From positions 1-32,868 of the forward strand of contig WOVA01000038.1 of assembly GCA_009773155.1 (NCBI GenBank): 32,868 bases of DNA, in the 5' to 3' direction. Below the pieces are notes generated by a model, which saw nothing but the letters and a program-made list of their open reading frames with translations, had not been told where the DNA came from and ran no database searches. The DNA comes from Elusimicrobiota bacterium (GTDB lineage Bacteria; Elusimicrobiota; Elusimicrobia; Elusimicrobiales; UBA9959). Positions 4,277-32,634 of this stretch are shown here, piece after piece; positions within the stretch are counted from its first letter, which is position 1; every line of letters begins with the position of its first letter. Both the position numbers and the translations under genes were made by a program.

Positions 4277-4303
4277 GGGGACACCATGCCGCATGGTGTC
4301 CCC
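4277..4303. repeat. GGGGACA/TGTCCCC palindrome
   Basis: A 27-nt perfect hairpin with 12-bp arms (GGGGACACCATG / CATGGTGTCCCC) and a 3-nt loop, in the short gap between rocD and murB. It belongs to the dispersed palindrome family found at several other places here. An alternative murB ATG lies in it. Confidence 0.8.
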
Positions 4304-6397: not shown

Positions 6398-6414
6398 GGG
6401 GACATACTGTCCCC
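6398..6414. repeat. Short GGGGACA/TGTCCCC palindrome
   Basis: GGGGACATACTGTCCCC: two 7-nt arms and a 3-nt loop. A minimal member of the dispersed family, lying between two minus-strand genes. Confidence 0.7.
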
Positions 6415-16731: not shown

Positions 16732-17493
16732 ATGCCCGTTTTCTCCCTCCTCCCCTCCGACGAAAACGCCGACAGGGCCCTCTGCGTTAAGACGCTGGGC
16801 GAACTGCGCCGCCTGGGCTCCGCCGACGCGCTGGCCGCCTGGCGCGCCAGACCCGGCGAGCTTTTCTCCGCGCCGGCCGCCGCCGAAGCTTCCGCCGCGG
16901 CGGTGACCGCCGCGCGGCTTGGGATAAAGACCTCCGTCTTCGAAACCGCCTCGCTGCCGGTCCCCGCGCCGCCGGAAACGCTCGTGAAAGCCGAAGTCAC
17001 CGACGAGGGAGTACGGCTTTACAGGAAGAGCGTAAAGGACTTTTTTCCGTACGCGGAGTTCGCGGTTTTAGCGGCCGGAGTCCTGGACGAGGTCCCCCCG
17101 TCGGTGAACCCTTCGGGTCCCGGCGCGCTCCTGGAAGAGGCCATAAAGAGAACGCTCGGCGGGGCCGCCCCCGCGGCCCCGGCCGCGCCCGCCGGTCCGC
17201 CGGCCAGAGAGACCGCCTTCTACCTGGACTTCCTGACCCTGGAAGGGGCCCGGTTCCGGCTGCGCTGGGACGAGGCCGATTATTCCTGGCTGGGAAAGAA
17301 GAAAGAATACTCCTCTATGGAGAATTTCCGGCGGACGCTGGAGGAGTTGCACGCCTTCTCGTTCGGCAGGATCCCCGTCACCGCCGCCTTCACCGCCGTG
17401 CGCTCCCGCGCGCCGGTGGCCCCGTTCCGCCTGCGCGATCTCGACGCCTTCGACTTCAACCTCCGCTGGTTCCTCGCCGTCACCCGCAGGTAA
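16732..17493 (+). CDS. Hypothetical protein, 253 aa
   Basis: Starts one base after the stop of the cysteine desulfidase gene, so it is almost certainly co-transcribed and coupled. No signal peptide or membrane helix. An Ala-rich N-terminal part (about 1-75), a short alpha/beta stretch around VKAEVTDEGVRLYRKSVKDF, a Pro/Ala linker (AAPAAPAAPAGPPA, about 144-157) and a C-terminal acidic/aromatic region (FYLDFLTLEGARFRLRWDEA ... FNLRWFLAVTRR). I recognise no family or motif. Two conserved-looking domains joined by a flexible linker are plausible. Confidence 0.65.
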   Translation: MPVFSLLPSDENADRALCVKTLGELRRLGSADALAAWRARPGELFSAPAAAEASAAAVTAARLGIKTSVFETASLPVPAPPETLVKAEVTDEGVRLYRKSVKDFFPYAEFAVLAAGVLDEVPPSVNPSGPGALLEEAIKRTLGGAAPAAPAAPAGPPARETAFYLDFLTLEGARFRLRWDEADYSWLGKKKEYSSMENFRRTLEELHAFSFGRIPVTAAFTAVRSRAPVAPFRLRDLDAFDFNLRWFLAVTRR

Positions 17494-20008: not shown

Positions 20009-20095
20009 GGGGACACAATACCTATTTAAAGCTACTATAAGCCGAAATAAGTATTGTGTCCCCACTCTTTGGAGGGAAATAGGTATTATGTCCCC
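20009..20095. repeat. Cluster of three GGGGACA/TGTCCCC half-repeats between convergent GH57 genes
   Basis: One left arm (20009-20028, GGGGACACAATACCTATTTA) faces two right arms (20045-20063 and 20077-20095, the second ending ATTATGTCCCC). The first pair can fold into a long hairpin and could serve both genes as a terminator. The last arm contains the stop codon of the minus-strand GH57 gene (20086-20088). Confidence 0.8.
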
Positions 20096-25142: not shown

Positions 25143-26077
25143 CGGCGCTCCTCCGCCGTTCCACGGCGCAGCAGGAAAAGGAAGAAAGGCGCGCCGGCCA
25201 GAGCGGTTATGACGCCGGCGGGCAGTTCGGCCGGCGCCGCGGCCGTCCGCGCCAGCGCGTCGGCCAGCATCAGGAAGCCCGCCCCGCAGGCCGCCGAGTA
25301 AAGGACCAGACCGGCGTGGCGCGGCCCGAAAAGCCGGCGCGCGGCGTGCGGCACTATCAGCCCGACAAAGCCGACCGCGCCGGCCACCGCCACCGCCGCG
25401 GCCGTCAGCAGCGCGGCGAGGGAAAAGAGAACCAGCTTCATCCGCTCGACGGGCACGCCCAGGCGGACGGCCCCCTCCTCTCCGGCCGAGAGTATATCGA
25501 GCTGGCGGCCCAGCAGCGCGGCCGCGGCGGAGCCCGCCAGCGTAACGCCCGCCAGAGCGGCCAGCGCCGCCGGCTCGAAAGCCCTGACCGTACCGAGCAG
25601 GAAAGAGAGCAGCGGCAGGCCGCGGCCGCGGTCCAGCGAGACCAGCAGCATGACCAGCGCCGCCAGGAAGGAACTCACGGCCACGCCCGCCAGCAGCATG
25701 GCCACGCCCGACGTGCGGCCCTTTATCCGGGCCAGCCGGTAGGCCGCCGCGGTGGCGCCCAGCCCCCCGCCGCCGACGAGCAGGTAAAAGAGCGGCGACA
25801 GCGGCCCCAGGCCCAGCCAGGCCGCCCCGGCGGCGCCGGCCATGGCGCCCGAGGAAGTGCCTATGATGTAGGGATCGGCCAGCGGGTTCTTGAGCACGCC
25901 CTGTAATATGGCGCCGGCCACGCTCAGCGCCGCGCCCACCAGCGCCGCCGCCAGTACGCGCGGCACCCTGATATTGAGAATGATATCCGGGTCGGCGCCC
26001 GCCGGACCCGAGAGCAGCGCGATAGCCGCGCAGGCCGCCAGGGCCAGCAGGGCCGCTATGGCCTTACCGATGCGCAT
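25139..26077 (-). CDS. btuC: Cobalamin ABC transporter permease (FecCD/BtuC family)
   Basis: A 312-aa inner-membrane permease with about ten hydrophobic helices from residue 7 onward. Family landmarks are [41 protein letters not shown] in the first third, and [20 protein letters not shown] near the end, the segment that contacts the ATPase. It overlaps btuF by 14 nt and btuD by 4 nt, so the three proteins should be made in balance. Substrate assignment rests on the riboswitch. Confidence 0.9.
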
Positions 26078-26870
26078 CCAGCGCCTCCCGCAAAGCTTTC
26101 ACCGCCGACGGTGACGACGGAGTGAGCCGCGCGAACAGGTCCCGGTCGAGACCGCAGAGCACGGCGCCCGAGCGGACCGCCTTCAGCCGCTCCGCCATCG
26201 GCCGGGCCTTTATCTCCGCCGCGTCGCCGCCGGGGCAGATTATCACCTCGGGATCCGCCTTGACCACGGTCTCCCACGAGGCCTGGAAATAGCCGGCCTT
26301 CTCCCGGCCGAAAATATTGTCCGCGCCGGCCAGCTCCGCCAGCGACGACATGAAAGAATCTTTGCCCGCGGACCAGCCGCCCGCGTCCACCTCGATATAG
26401 GCGCGCAGGCGCTTTTTCCCGGAATAAGCCGCGGCGGCGAAATCTTTTTTAAGACGGGCGTTGAGCTTCCTGCCCTCGGCGGCCAGCCCCAGTTCCGCGG
26501 AGATAATCCTCACCGTCCTGTGAATATCGGAGACTTTCTTCTCCTCCGGTATGCGCACGACTTTGATGCCCAGCGCGGACAGTTTTTCCGACGCCGCGGA
26601 ATTCTTCCACAGCCCGTCGAAAACGACGTCGGGCTTCAGCGCGTAGACGCGCTCTATATCGGGGCTGAAATAATCGCCCACCTTCGGCAGCGCGGCGGCC
26701 GCCGCCGGACGGTTGCAGAAATTGGACACTCCCACCAGCCTGTCACCCGCCCCCAGCGCGAATATCGTCTCCGTATACGACGGCAGCAGCGACACCACCC
26801 TCTCCCCCCACACCGGGGACACAAAAAAGGGGGACACAATACCTATTAAAAAAAGCCCTGTTTTCTTCAT
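26064..26870 (-). CDS. btuF: Periplasmic cobalamin-binding protein
   Basis: A 268-aa type III (helical backbone) substrate-binding protein: [33 protein letters not shown] is the typical BtuF N-terminal lobe, VFDGLWKN and VIRIPEE-like segments follow, and [10 protein letters not shown] belongs to the C-terminal lobe. The frame opens at a TTG at 26888, but the ATG at 26870 has AAGGA 5 nt upstream. The signal peptide ([22 protein letters not shown]) is unusual: its hydrophobic core is read from two arms of the GGGGACA repeat family (IGIVSP and FFVSP). It delivers B12 to the BtuCD pump, as the upstream riboswitch suggests. Confidence 0.9.
26815..26847. repeat. Two GGGGACA repeat arms inside the btuF signal-peptide codons
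   Basis: GGGGACAC at 26815-26822 and GGGGACACAATACCTATT at 26830-26847, in the same orientation. They are read in frame on the minus strand as VSP and IGIVSP. Confidence 0.75.
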
Positions 26871-26898: not shown

Positions 26899-26942
26899 GG
26901 GGACACAATACCTATTTCCGCGGAAATAGGTATTGTGTCCCC
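26899..26942. repeat. 44-nt perfect palindrome of the GGGGACA family
   Basis: Every base from 26899 to 26942 pairs with its mirror position: arms start GGGGACACAATACCTATTTC and meet at CGCG. It is the longest and cleanest family member here. It lies between the riboswitch terminator and the btuF ribosome site, so it would form a strong hairpin in the btuFCD leader mRNA. Confidence 0.9.
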
Positions 26943-26944
26943 AA

Positions 26945-26975
26945 TTAAAAAACCCTTTCTCCGGGGAGAGAGGGT
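26945..26975 (-). terminator. Riboswitch-controlled intrinsic terminator upstream of btuF
   Basis: On the minus strand an 11-bp stem with one mismatch (ACCCTCTCTCC / GGAGAAAGGGT) and 2-nt loop, followed by TTTTTTAA. It lies directly downstream of the cobalamin riboswitch and before btuF, the standard place for an expression platform that stops transcription when B12 is bound. Confidence 0.8.
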
Positions 26976-27016
26976 CGGCAAAGATTCCCCCCGGAGCCCC
27001 CGCGCGCGCGGAGGTT

Positions 27017-27091
27017 CGCAGTAGACCGGGCTGAGCCTTTCGGCATCACCGTTGCGGGGCAGCCGGGGATTTACACCCCGTTCCTTCTGCG
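27017..27091 (-). promoter_or_regulatory. Cobalamin riboswitch
   Basis: Read on the minus strand, the closing stem is CGCAG/CTGCG. Inside it come GGAA, GGTGTAAATCC, GCCCCGCAACGGTGA and AGCCCGGTCTACTGCG, which match the conserved core of cobalamin riboswitches (GGAA, GGTGAAAATCC, CCCGCNACTGTGA, AGCCNGG-ACCTGC). It is compact, like the shorter cobalamin class. It precedes a terminator and the btuFCD operon. Boundaries of the outer stems are approximate. Confidence 0.88.
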
Positions 27092-31239: not shown

Positions 31240-32634
31240 TTACCGCTGGGACTGGACGCTGAGGTACATCGGCTGGCCGTCGCGCACCAGGTCGAAGATT
31301 ACTCCCTCGCGCAGGTCCGCCCCAGTCGCCGCTTTCTTAAGCTCGGCCGCGCCGCGCACCGGCGACCGGTTTATTTCCTTTATCAGGTCCCCCTCGTGGA
31401 TATACCCGTAGAGCCTGGAATCGGGGCTGACACGGAGCACCTGGGCGCCGTCCCGTCCAACCCTTAGCTCTATCCCCTCCCAGGAAGCGTTGCCGGCTCC
31501 GACCCCGGCGATGCCGCGCGCGGGCTTGGCCGCCGCCAGCCCGGCCTCGGGCCGCTCGACCAGCGTAACGGAGGCCGACATCTCCCGGCCGTCGCGCAGG
31601 AAAATTATCTCGGCCCTGTCGCCGGGCCTCCGCGTATAGATGCGGTGTATCAGTTCCTCGTTGGTCTCCACCGGCGTGCCGTCGCAGGAAACGATGATGT
31701 CCCCGCGCCGGAACCCGGCATTCTCGGCCGGCGAACCCGCGATAACCTCGTTGATTATCCCGCCGACCCGGCCCCTGACGCCCAGCCGCGCCATCATCAC
31801 CGGGTCCATCTGCAGCAGCGAGACCCCCAGCCAGCCGCGCCTCACCCGCCGCCCGGCCTTTACGTCGGCGAACACTCTGGCGGCCTCTGCGGCCGGCACC
31901 GCGTAGCTCATCCCGGCGAAGGCGCCCGAAGGCGAGATTATCGCCGTGTTTATCCCTATCACATCGCCGTCGATATCGAGCAGGGCGCCGCCGGAATTAC
32001 CCTGGTTTATGGCCGCGTCGGTCTGCAGCAGGTTGGAATAATTGCGCCCCTCTATCTTGAGCGAGACGCCGCGCGCCGAAACTATGCCGGCCGTGACGGT
32101 CTGCCGCAGCCCGAAAGGAAAGCCCACCGCTATGGCCCAGTCGCCGATCCTGGGCGTCTTCTCAGCCGCCAGCCGCAGGTACGGGAACTTCTCCGCGGAG
32201 CGCATCTTGAGCACCGCCAGGTCCATCTCGGCGTCGCCGCCCACGGGTTCGGCTATAAAAACCCTCTCCCTCCCCTTGTCGCTGAGCATCTTGACCTTTA
32301 TGGCCTTGGCCCCCTCAACCACGTGGTAATTGGTAAGGATATAGCCCTCCGGGTCAACTATCACGCCGGACCCGACGCCCTGTATATCGTAGCGGTAGAC
32401 GCGCTCCGTCGGCATCATGTAGCCGAAGAAGTACTCCGGCTCCACCACCCGGGCGGAGCCCTCGCGTACCACCTCGATGCTGACCACGGCCTTGCCGCCC
32501 CTGGCGGCGGCGTCGTTGAAGGCTTTCTGCAGCGACCGTGCCGCGTCGGGGACACCCTGCGGCATGGTGTCCCCTGCCGGGACGGAGGCCGGAAGCACTA
32601 ATAATAAGGAAAGAAGGAAAGAGGCTGTTTTCAT
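31240..32634 (-). CDS. HtrA/DegP-family periplasmic serine protease with two PDZ domains
   Basis: A 464-aa exported protease for envelope protein quality control. It has a signal peptide (MKTASFLLSLLLVLPASVPA), a trypsin-like domain with His104 (TNYHVVEG), Asp138 (EMDLAVLK) and Ser214 (QGNSGGALLD), then PDZ1 (GWLGVSLLQM ... RRGDIIVSCDG) and a more divergent PDZ2 (ELRVGRDGAQVLRVSPDS, EGDLIKEINRSP). An ATG two codons earlier sits only 1 nt from AAGGAG, so the second ATG, 7 nt from it, is chosen. Residues 21-29 just after the predicted cleavage site come from a GGGGACA palindrome. Its promoter has five tandem repeats upstream. Confidence 0.92.
   Translation of the reverse strand: MKTASFLLSLLLVLPASVPAGDTMPQGVPDAARSLQKAFNDAAARGGKAVVSIEVVREGSARVVEPEYFFGYMMPTERVYRYDIQGVGSGVIVDPEGYILTNYHVVEGAKAIKVKMLSDKGRERVFIAEPVGGDAEMDLAVLKMRSAEKFPYLRLAAEKTPRIGDWAIAVGFPFGLRQTVTAGIVSARGVSLKIEGRNYSNLLQTDAAINQGNSGGALLDIDGDVIGINTAIISPSGAFAGMSYAVPAAEAARVFADVKAGRRVRRGWLGVSLLQMDPVMMARLGVRGRVGGIINEVIAGSPAENAGFRRGDIIVSCDGTPVETNEELIHRIYTRRPGDRAEIIFLRDGREMSASVTLVERPEAGLAAAKPARGIAGVGAGNASWEGIELRVGRDGAQVLRVSPDSRLYGYIHEGDLIKEINRSPVRGAAELKKAATGADLREGVIFDLVRDGQPMYLSVQSQR
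32548..32574. repeat. GGGGACA/TGTCCCC palindrome inside htrA
   Basis: A 27-nt hairpin with 12-bp arms (one mismatch), almost the same as the copy at 4277-4303. It is read in frame as GDTMPQGVP at the start of mature HtrA. Confidence 0.8.

Follow-up and report, generated by a model that had tools for sequence, protein, structure and literature searches.

A dispersed palindromic repeat arm read in frame as signal-peptide codons of a btuF-like gene throughout a genus of Elusimicrobiota

Results

The btuF-like gene and its leader

The window, i.e. the whole stretch of 32,868 nucleotides that was analysed, is contig C68 of a 2.76-Mb Elusimicrobiota genome. A btuF-like gene on its minus strand (26067..26870) encodes a vitamin B12 ABC-transporter substrate-binding protein of 268 amino acids; the ATG is at 26870 and an AAGGA ribosome site lies just 5' of it. 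In the profile search the protein was matched by Pfam Peripla_BP_2 with 114.7 bits and by NCBIfam PRK03379 (BtuF) with 83.6 bits, the latter value being below the model cut-off of 234. A FecCD permease gene and then an ABC ATPase gene follow downstream. The core of a cobalamin riboswitch was detected at 27026..27080 (minus strand) with an RF00174 score of 30.7 bits (gathering score 31.5, E 3.6e-6), and the congener loci L039, L040 and L041 scored 31.8-33.0 bits, above the gathering score. A terminator-like hairpin at 26947..26976 (minus strand), with an RNA fold of -12.7 kcal/mol and a z of -2.0, is followed by the U-tract UUUUUU; this hairpin was not among the sites listed by the consensus terminator scan. 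The order on the minus strand is thus the riboswitch core, the terminator-like hairpin, a palindrome with arms L and R, AAGGA, the start codon at 26870 and, inside the gene, a third arm, R'.

The palindrome (26899..26942) is a perfect one of 44 bp, composed of two 22-nt arms with no spacer, and is a dispersed repeat element of the terminal inverted repeat (TIR) type. Its left arm L (26925..26942, minus strand) comes first in the mRNA and is followed by the right arm R (26899..26916, minus strand). R' (26830..26847, minus strand) is an exact 18-nt copy lying in the btuF frame, where it supplies codons 9-14 (IGIVSP) of the signal peptide. The identity between R' and the palindrome arm extends over 18-19 nt (26829/26830-26847), the exact stretch being GGGGACACAATACCTATT, and 51 nt separate the palindrome from R'. 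The window contains 20 occurrences of GGGGACA, compared with 4.0 +/- 1.8 expected. The first-pass annotation had described these coordinates, residues, repeat family and perfect upstream palindrome correctly. It had also assigned the signal-peptide core to two repeat arms, which holds for the full 18-nt R'; the other is a species-specific partial copy of 10 nt (26815..26824, minus strand), read within FFVSP and absent from btuF of the three congeners. The partial copy is probably a short (15-bp) tandem duplication and, not being conserved, was rejected as a separate recruitment. A further, very short GGGGACA palindrome (GGGGACATACTGTCCCC) was noticed at 6398-6414.

The signal peptide in related species

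The BtuF orthologues of the three congeners, 80-89% identical, share LIGI[VA]SP in the signal peptide, and in all four species of the genus L, R and R' are located at equal offsets of -72, -46 and +23 from the ATG. No arms were found near the start of the btuF loci of other genera in the family, apart from one chance match with 5 mismatches. The signal peptides of BtuF from the other genera examined are ordinary, comparable in length and hydrophobicity, and devoid of the IGIVSP motif. The alignment proposed in the first-pass annotation therefore separates the genus, where the arm is kept in all four species, from the other genera, where ordinary signals take its place; none of the repeat-free relatives examined in those genera showed the motif, and the refuting condition named in that annotation thus did not refute the proposal. 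Since the arm is shared through the genus and missing elsewhere, the sequence comparison indicates that the repeat entered these codons in the genus ancestor. This dating is set by the other genera alone, the number of empty btuF sites among the congeners being 0.

The distance to the mature start is 23-25 residues in the genus; for many of the orthologues from other genera it is about 19-24. Lengths this similar indicate that codons were mainly substituted by the arm and only to a lesser extent added. When the six residues were deleted in silico, the hydrophobicity of the window BtuF dropped with a core remaining, and that of the G003 protein rose. The core left after deletion, together with the similar signals of the armless orthologues, makes it unlikely that the arm is needed for export. 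Consequently, the earlier suggestion that a mobile palindrome was recruited in frame as an export signal is retained for the repeat-family origin, the frame and the hydrophobic core, whereas its claim that the repeat created the export signal or was needed as one is not supported.

Distribution of the repeat family

Pattern searches and fetched regions were used to gather the arms. At up to 3 mismatches the genome contained 63 arms, 43 of them exact, and the reversed-pattern control gave 0. Most copies form a hairpin with arm starts 24-37 nt apart and a variable centre. In other copies the arms are far apart, and several members of the family have a third arm about 50-90 nt beyond, as at btuF. 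The other three-arm copies sit at gene 3' ends; for the copy at 20009..20095 of the window, one arm is read as the closing codons RNSGT* of a GH57 branching-enzyme gene, stop included, as it is in G003. The gene census around the arms was based on a crude ORF caller, by which 51 of the 151 arms overlapped a called ORF, many of the 5' overlaps being likely false starts.

Two further coding overlaps were observed. The tail WGHNTYFDGR* of an amidase-domain protein (L100 257-1738, G000:C28) is read from a repeat arm, and the tail WGHNT[YND]FDGR* is common to all four species of the genus. A possible in-frame arm with 3 mismatches, MRDIIRIS at G000:C45:31286, is uncertain; it is present in G001, and the codons differ in G003 and G002.

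A sister palindrome family in the window

At 32548-32574 a 27-bp palindrome of the sister GGGGACACCATGC family encodes GDTMPQGVP within a trypsin/PDZ (HtrA-like) protease gene; it lies in frame where the signal peptide is cleaved. In three congeners the protease site is empty and the signal peptide has an ordinary end (e.g. VPSGAQ/DAARS); in the window gene, about nine base pairs have been replaced by 27. This clean empty-site comparison supports the entry of palindromes into signal-peptide codons in frame and shows a second signal peptide of the window accommodating an insertion of this kind. A second, perfect copy of this palindrome at 4277-4303 overlaps the predicted start (MRHGVP) of a murB-like gene; this start may be wrong or repeat-derived.

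The associated transposase

A gene of the Y1_Tnp family was located on contig C45 (17404-18108, minus strand) between repeat copies at 16959 and 18175. The Y1_Tnp score was 34.2 bits with a cut-off of 23, and the HVH and catalytic Tyr motifs were seen in the translation. With NCBIfam NF047646, the equivalog of the REP-associated tyrosine transposase, the score was 51.8 bits at a cut-off of 80, and the search of solved structures gave no match to this transposase. Orthologues of 86-87% identity are likewise placed between repeat copies in G002 and G003. In G027, a member of another genus, a 59% orthologue is directly bracketed by inverted arms. At the corresponding site of G001 (C12:8615-9169; L136 4116-4670) both flanking repeats and the neighbour gene are kept and the transposase is gone; the sole Y1 gene of G001 is a distant homologue of the cognate transposase.

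Divergence of the arms with and without the transposase

Among three species R' had 0 changes in 18 positions, and the adjacent spacer had 9 and 19 changes in 51 positions (18-37%). For orthologous L-R copies in pairs of species with the transposase, the arms diverged by 0.9-3.9% versus 13-16% for the aligned flanks. In the pairs including G001, which lacks the transposase, the corresponding values were 9-13% and 12.5-15%. The comparison covers four species with a single transposase-free branch, G001, which the pairwise values share. The BtuF arm showed the same contrast as the genome-wide copies. The natural reading of arms that are frozen with the transposase and diverge near the flank rate without it is that the transposase keeps the repeats alike, by copying or conversion, the btuF codons being taken along. 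A CCTGTT variant is common to some G001 copies, and the divergence of the G001 arms is possibly a shift of the repeat consensus.

Discussion

Three other explanations of the btuF arm were weighed. According to one of them, the signal-peptide codons came first and their likeness to the repeat arose by chance or convergence. Isoleucine, valine and glycine are frequent in signal peptides and the match spans 18 nt only; however, the identity over these 18 nt is exact, the synonymous sites are unchanged in three species while the spacers differ by 18-37%, the control searches gave 0 matches in the genome, and the motif occurs in none of the other-genus signal peptides. Chance similarity of the IGIVSP codons was rejected on the genome controls, and its probability is considered to be very small. 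An RNA switch, in which L would pair either with R or with R' in the signal-peptide codons and thereby control btuF translation below the riboswitch, is somewhat less improbable and still clearly disfavoured. L and R' can pair along their full length in each of the four species (18, 18 and 18 Watson-Crick pairs; 17 plus one G-U in G001), whereas the L:R pairing has decayed in two species, in G002 with the decay limited to R. Moreover, L and R' of G001 carry the same two changes, which are absent from R (chance about 0.009 by a simple, post hoc model), and the exact GGGGACGCAATGCC version is found in no other G001 arm. The folding calculations pointed the other way, resulting in equilibrium pair probabilities for L:R of 0.998, 0.998, 0.967 and 0.831 and for L:R' of 0.000, 0.000, 0.028 and 0.167. 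L:R is also the first to form, a terminator-like hairpin 5' of L already belongs to the riboswitch, and the other three-arm copies are located at gene 3' ends. With L:R at 83-99.8% in the folding, the switch was rejected. Template-switch copying between inverted arms could give matched changes without any RNA function. In view of the folding and of matched L and R changes at a further G001 copy (C12:8615), such copying is the more economical candidate explanation of the matched L/R' changes in G001.

The remaining alternative accepts the repeat origin and proposes that direct selection on the hairpins, e.g. for transcript ends or mRNA stability, keeps the arms, the transposase being incidental. 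It would account for arms that are frozen relative to their flanks at orthologous sites and for the many copies near gene ends, and the loss in G001 of a DNA or RNA hairpin role would yield the same divergence pattern. Nevertheless, the G001 arms diverge near the flank rate though the same sites and neighbour genes remain, and we regard this alternative as unlikely, though less so than the RNA switch.

The preferred reading, to which we give a probability of roughly three in four, is that a three-arm copy of the TIRtron type entered btuF in the genus ancestor, that R' overwrote codons 9-14, and that the arms have since been frozen only in the presence of the transposase. In the proposed course of events, a copy with the arms L-R-R' would have settled between the terminator of the cobalamin riboswitch and btuF, and R' would have overwritten codons of a signal peptide that was already working. 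Since the frame used, IGIVSP, is hydrophobic, export could have been tolerated and the gene left open. Afterwards the btuF arm would have acted like the other copies, nearly frozen with the cognate transposase and drifting without it. The entry presumably took place by transposase-made insertion or by copying, and BtuF export is probably still functional.

The freezing of the arms by homogenisation rather than by selection is suggested by the divergence contrast. The stronger proposition, that transposase-dependent homogenisation among repeat copies, and not selection on the protein, fixes the BtuF signal core between species, is put forward tentatively and appears doubtful at present. If it is true, host codons are continually being rewritten, and for as long as the transposase persists a stretch of a host protein is set by a selfish element. 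The species with and without the transposase constitute a natural test of whether transposases homogenise repeats and thereby write a host protein.

Palindromic repeats in frame are already known, mostly as whole insertions of doubtful effect, and the in-frame entry at btuF is a clear example of this known phenomenon. Here, a repeat arm has persisted across a genus within the functional section of an export signal; a literature search on the recruitment of REP sequences into signal peptides, covering titles and abstract openings of open-access papers, returned no matching report.

Among the known systems, the closest likeness is to TIRYT/TIRtron elements, in which a Y1/HuH tyrosine transposase is flanked by inverted repeats sharing GGGGWSAS (Di Nocera et al. 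2013, PMC3733652). TIRYT repeats are scattered singly, as dimers and as clusters, and some are near or overlap ORFs, N-termini included (PMC3733652). The present family likewise combines a Y1 (IS200-like) HuH transposase bearing the Tyr with flanking inverted repeats, and its repeat ends, GGGGACAC, match the GGGGWSAS motif as defined in PMC3733652. The family fits the TIRs of a TIRtron, and its movement by the transposase is suggested by the family membership, the distribution and the transposase itself. In contrast to the published elements, the host is a member of Elusimicrobiota, a name that has no match in the text of PMC3733652, the arm encodes signal-peptide residues conserved in the genus, and arm identity tracks the presence of the transposase. 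REP/REPIN sequences with their RAYTs are similar in being short, mainly extragenic palindromes beside a single-copy Y1 transposase (PMC3116915, PMC6006769). The repeats described here differ from them in beginning with GGGGAC and in forming a nearly perfect palindrome of 44 bp, and the GTAG/GTGG tetranucleotide, a REP/REPIN trait, was not found at the hairpin foot of the btuF copy. Rickettsia palindromic elements (RPEs) are also palindromic selfish repeats in frame within host protein genes (PMC10969869). RPEs measure about 150 bp, carry the code for an entire conserved peptide and are found interrupting many genes (reviewed in PMC10969869), whereas btuF has a 44-bp palindrome and a separate 18-nt arm that takes the place of six signal-peptide codons.
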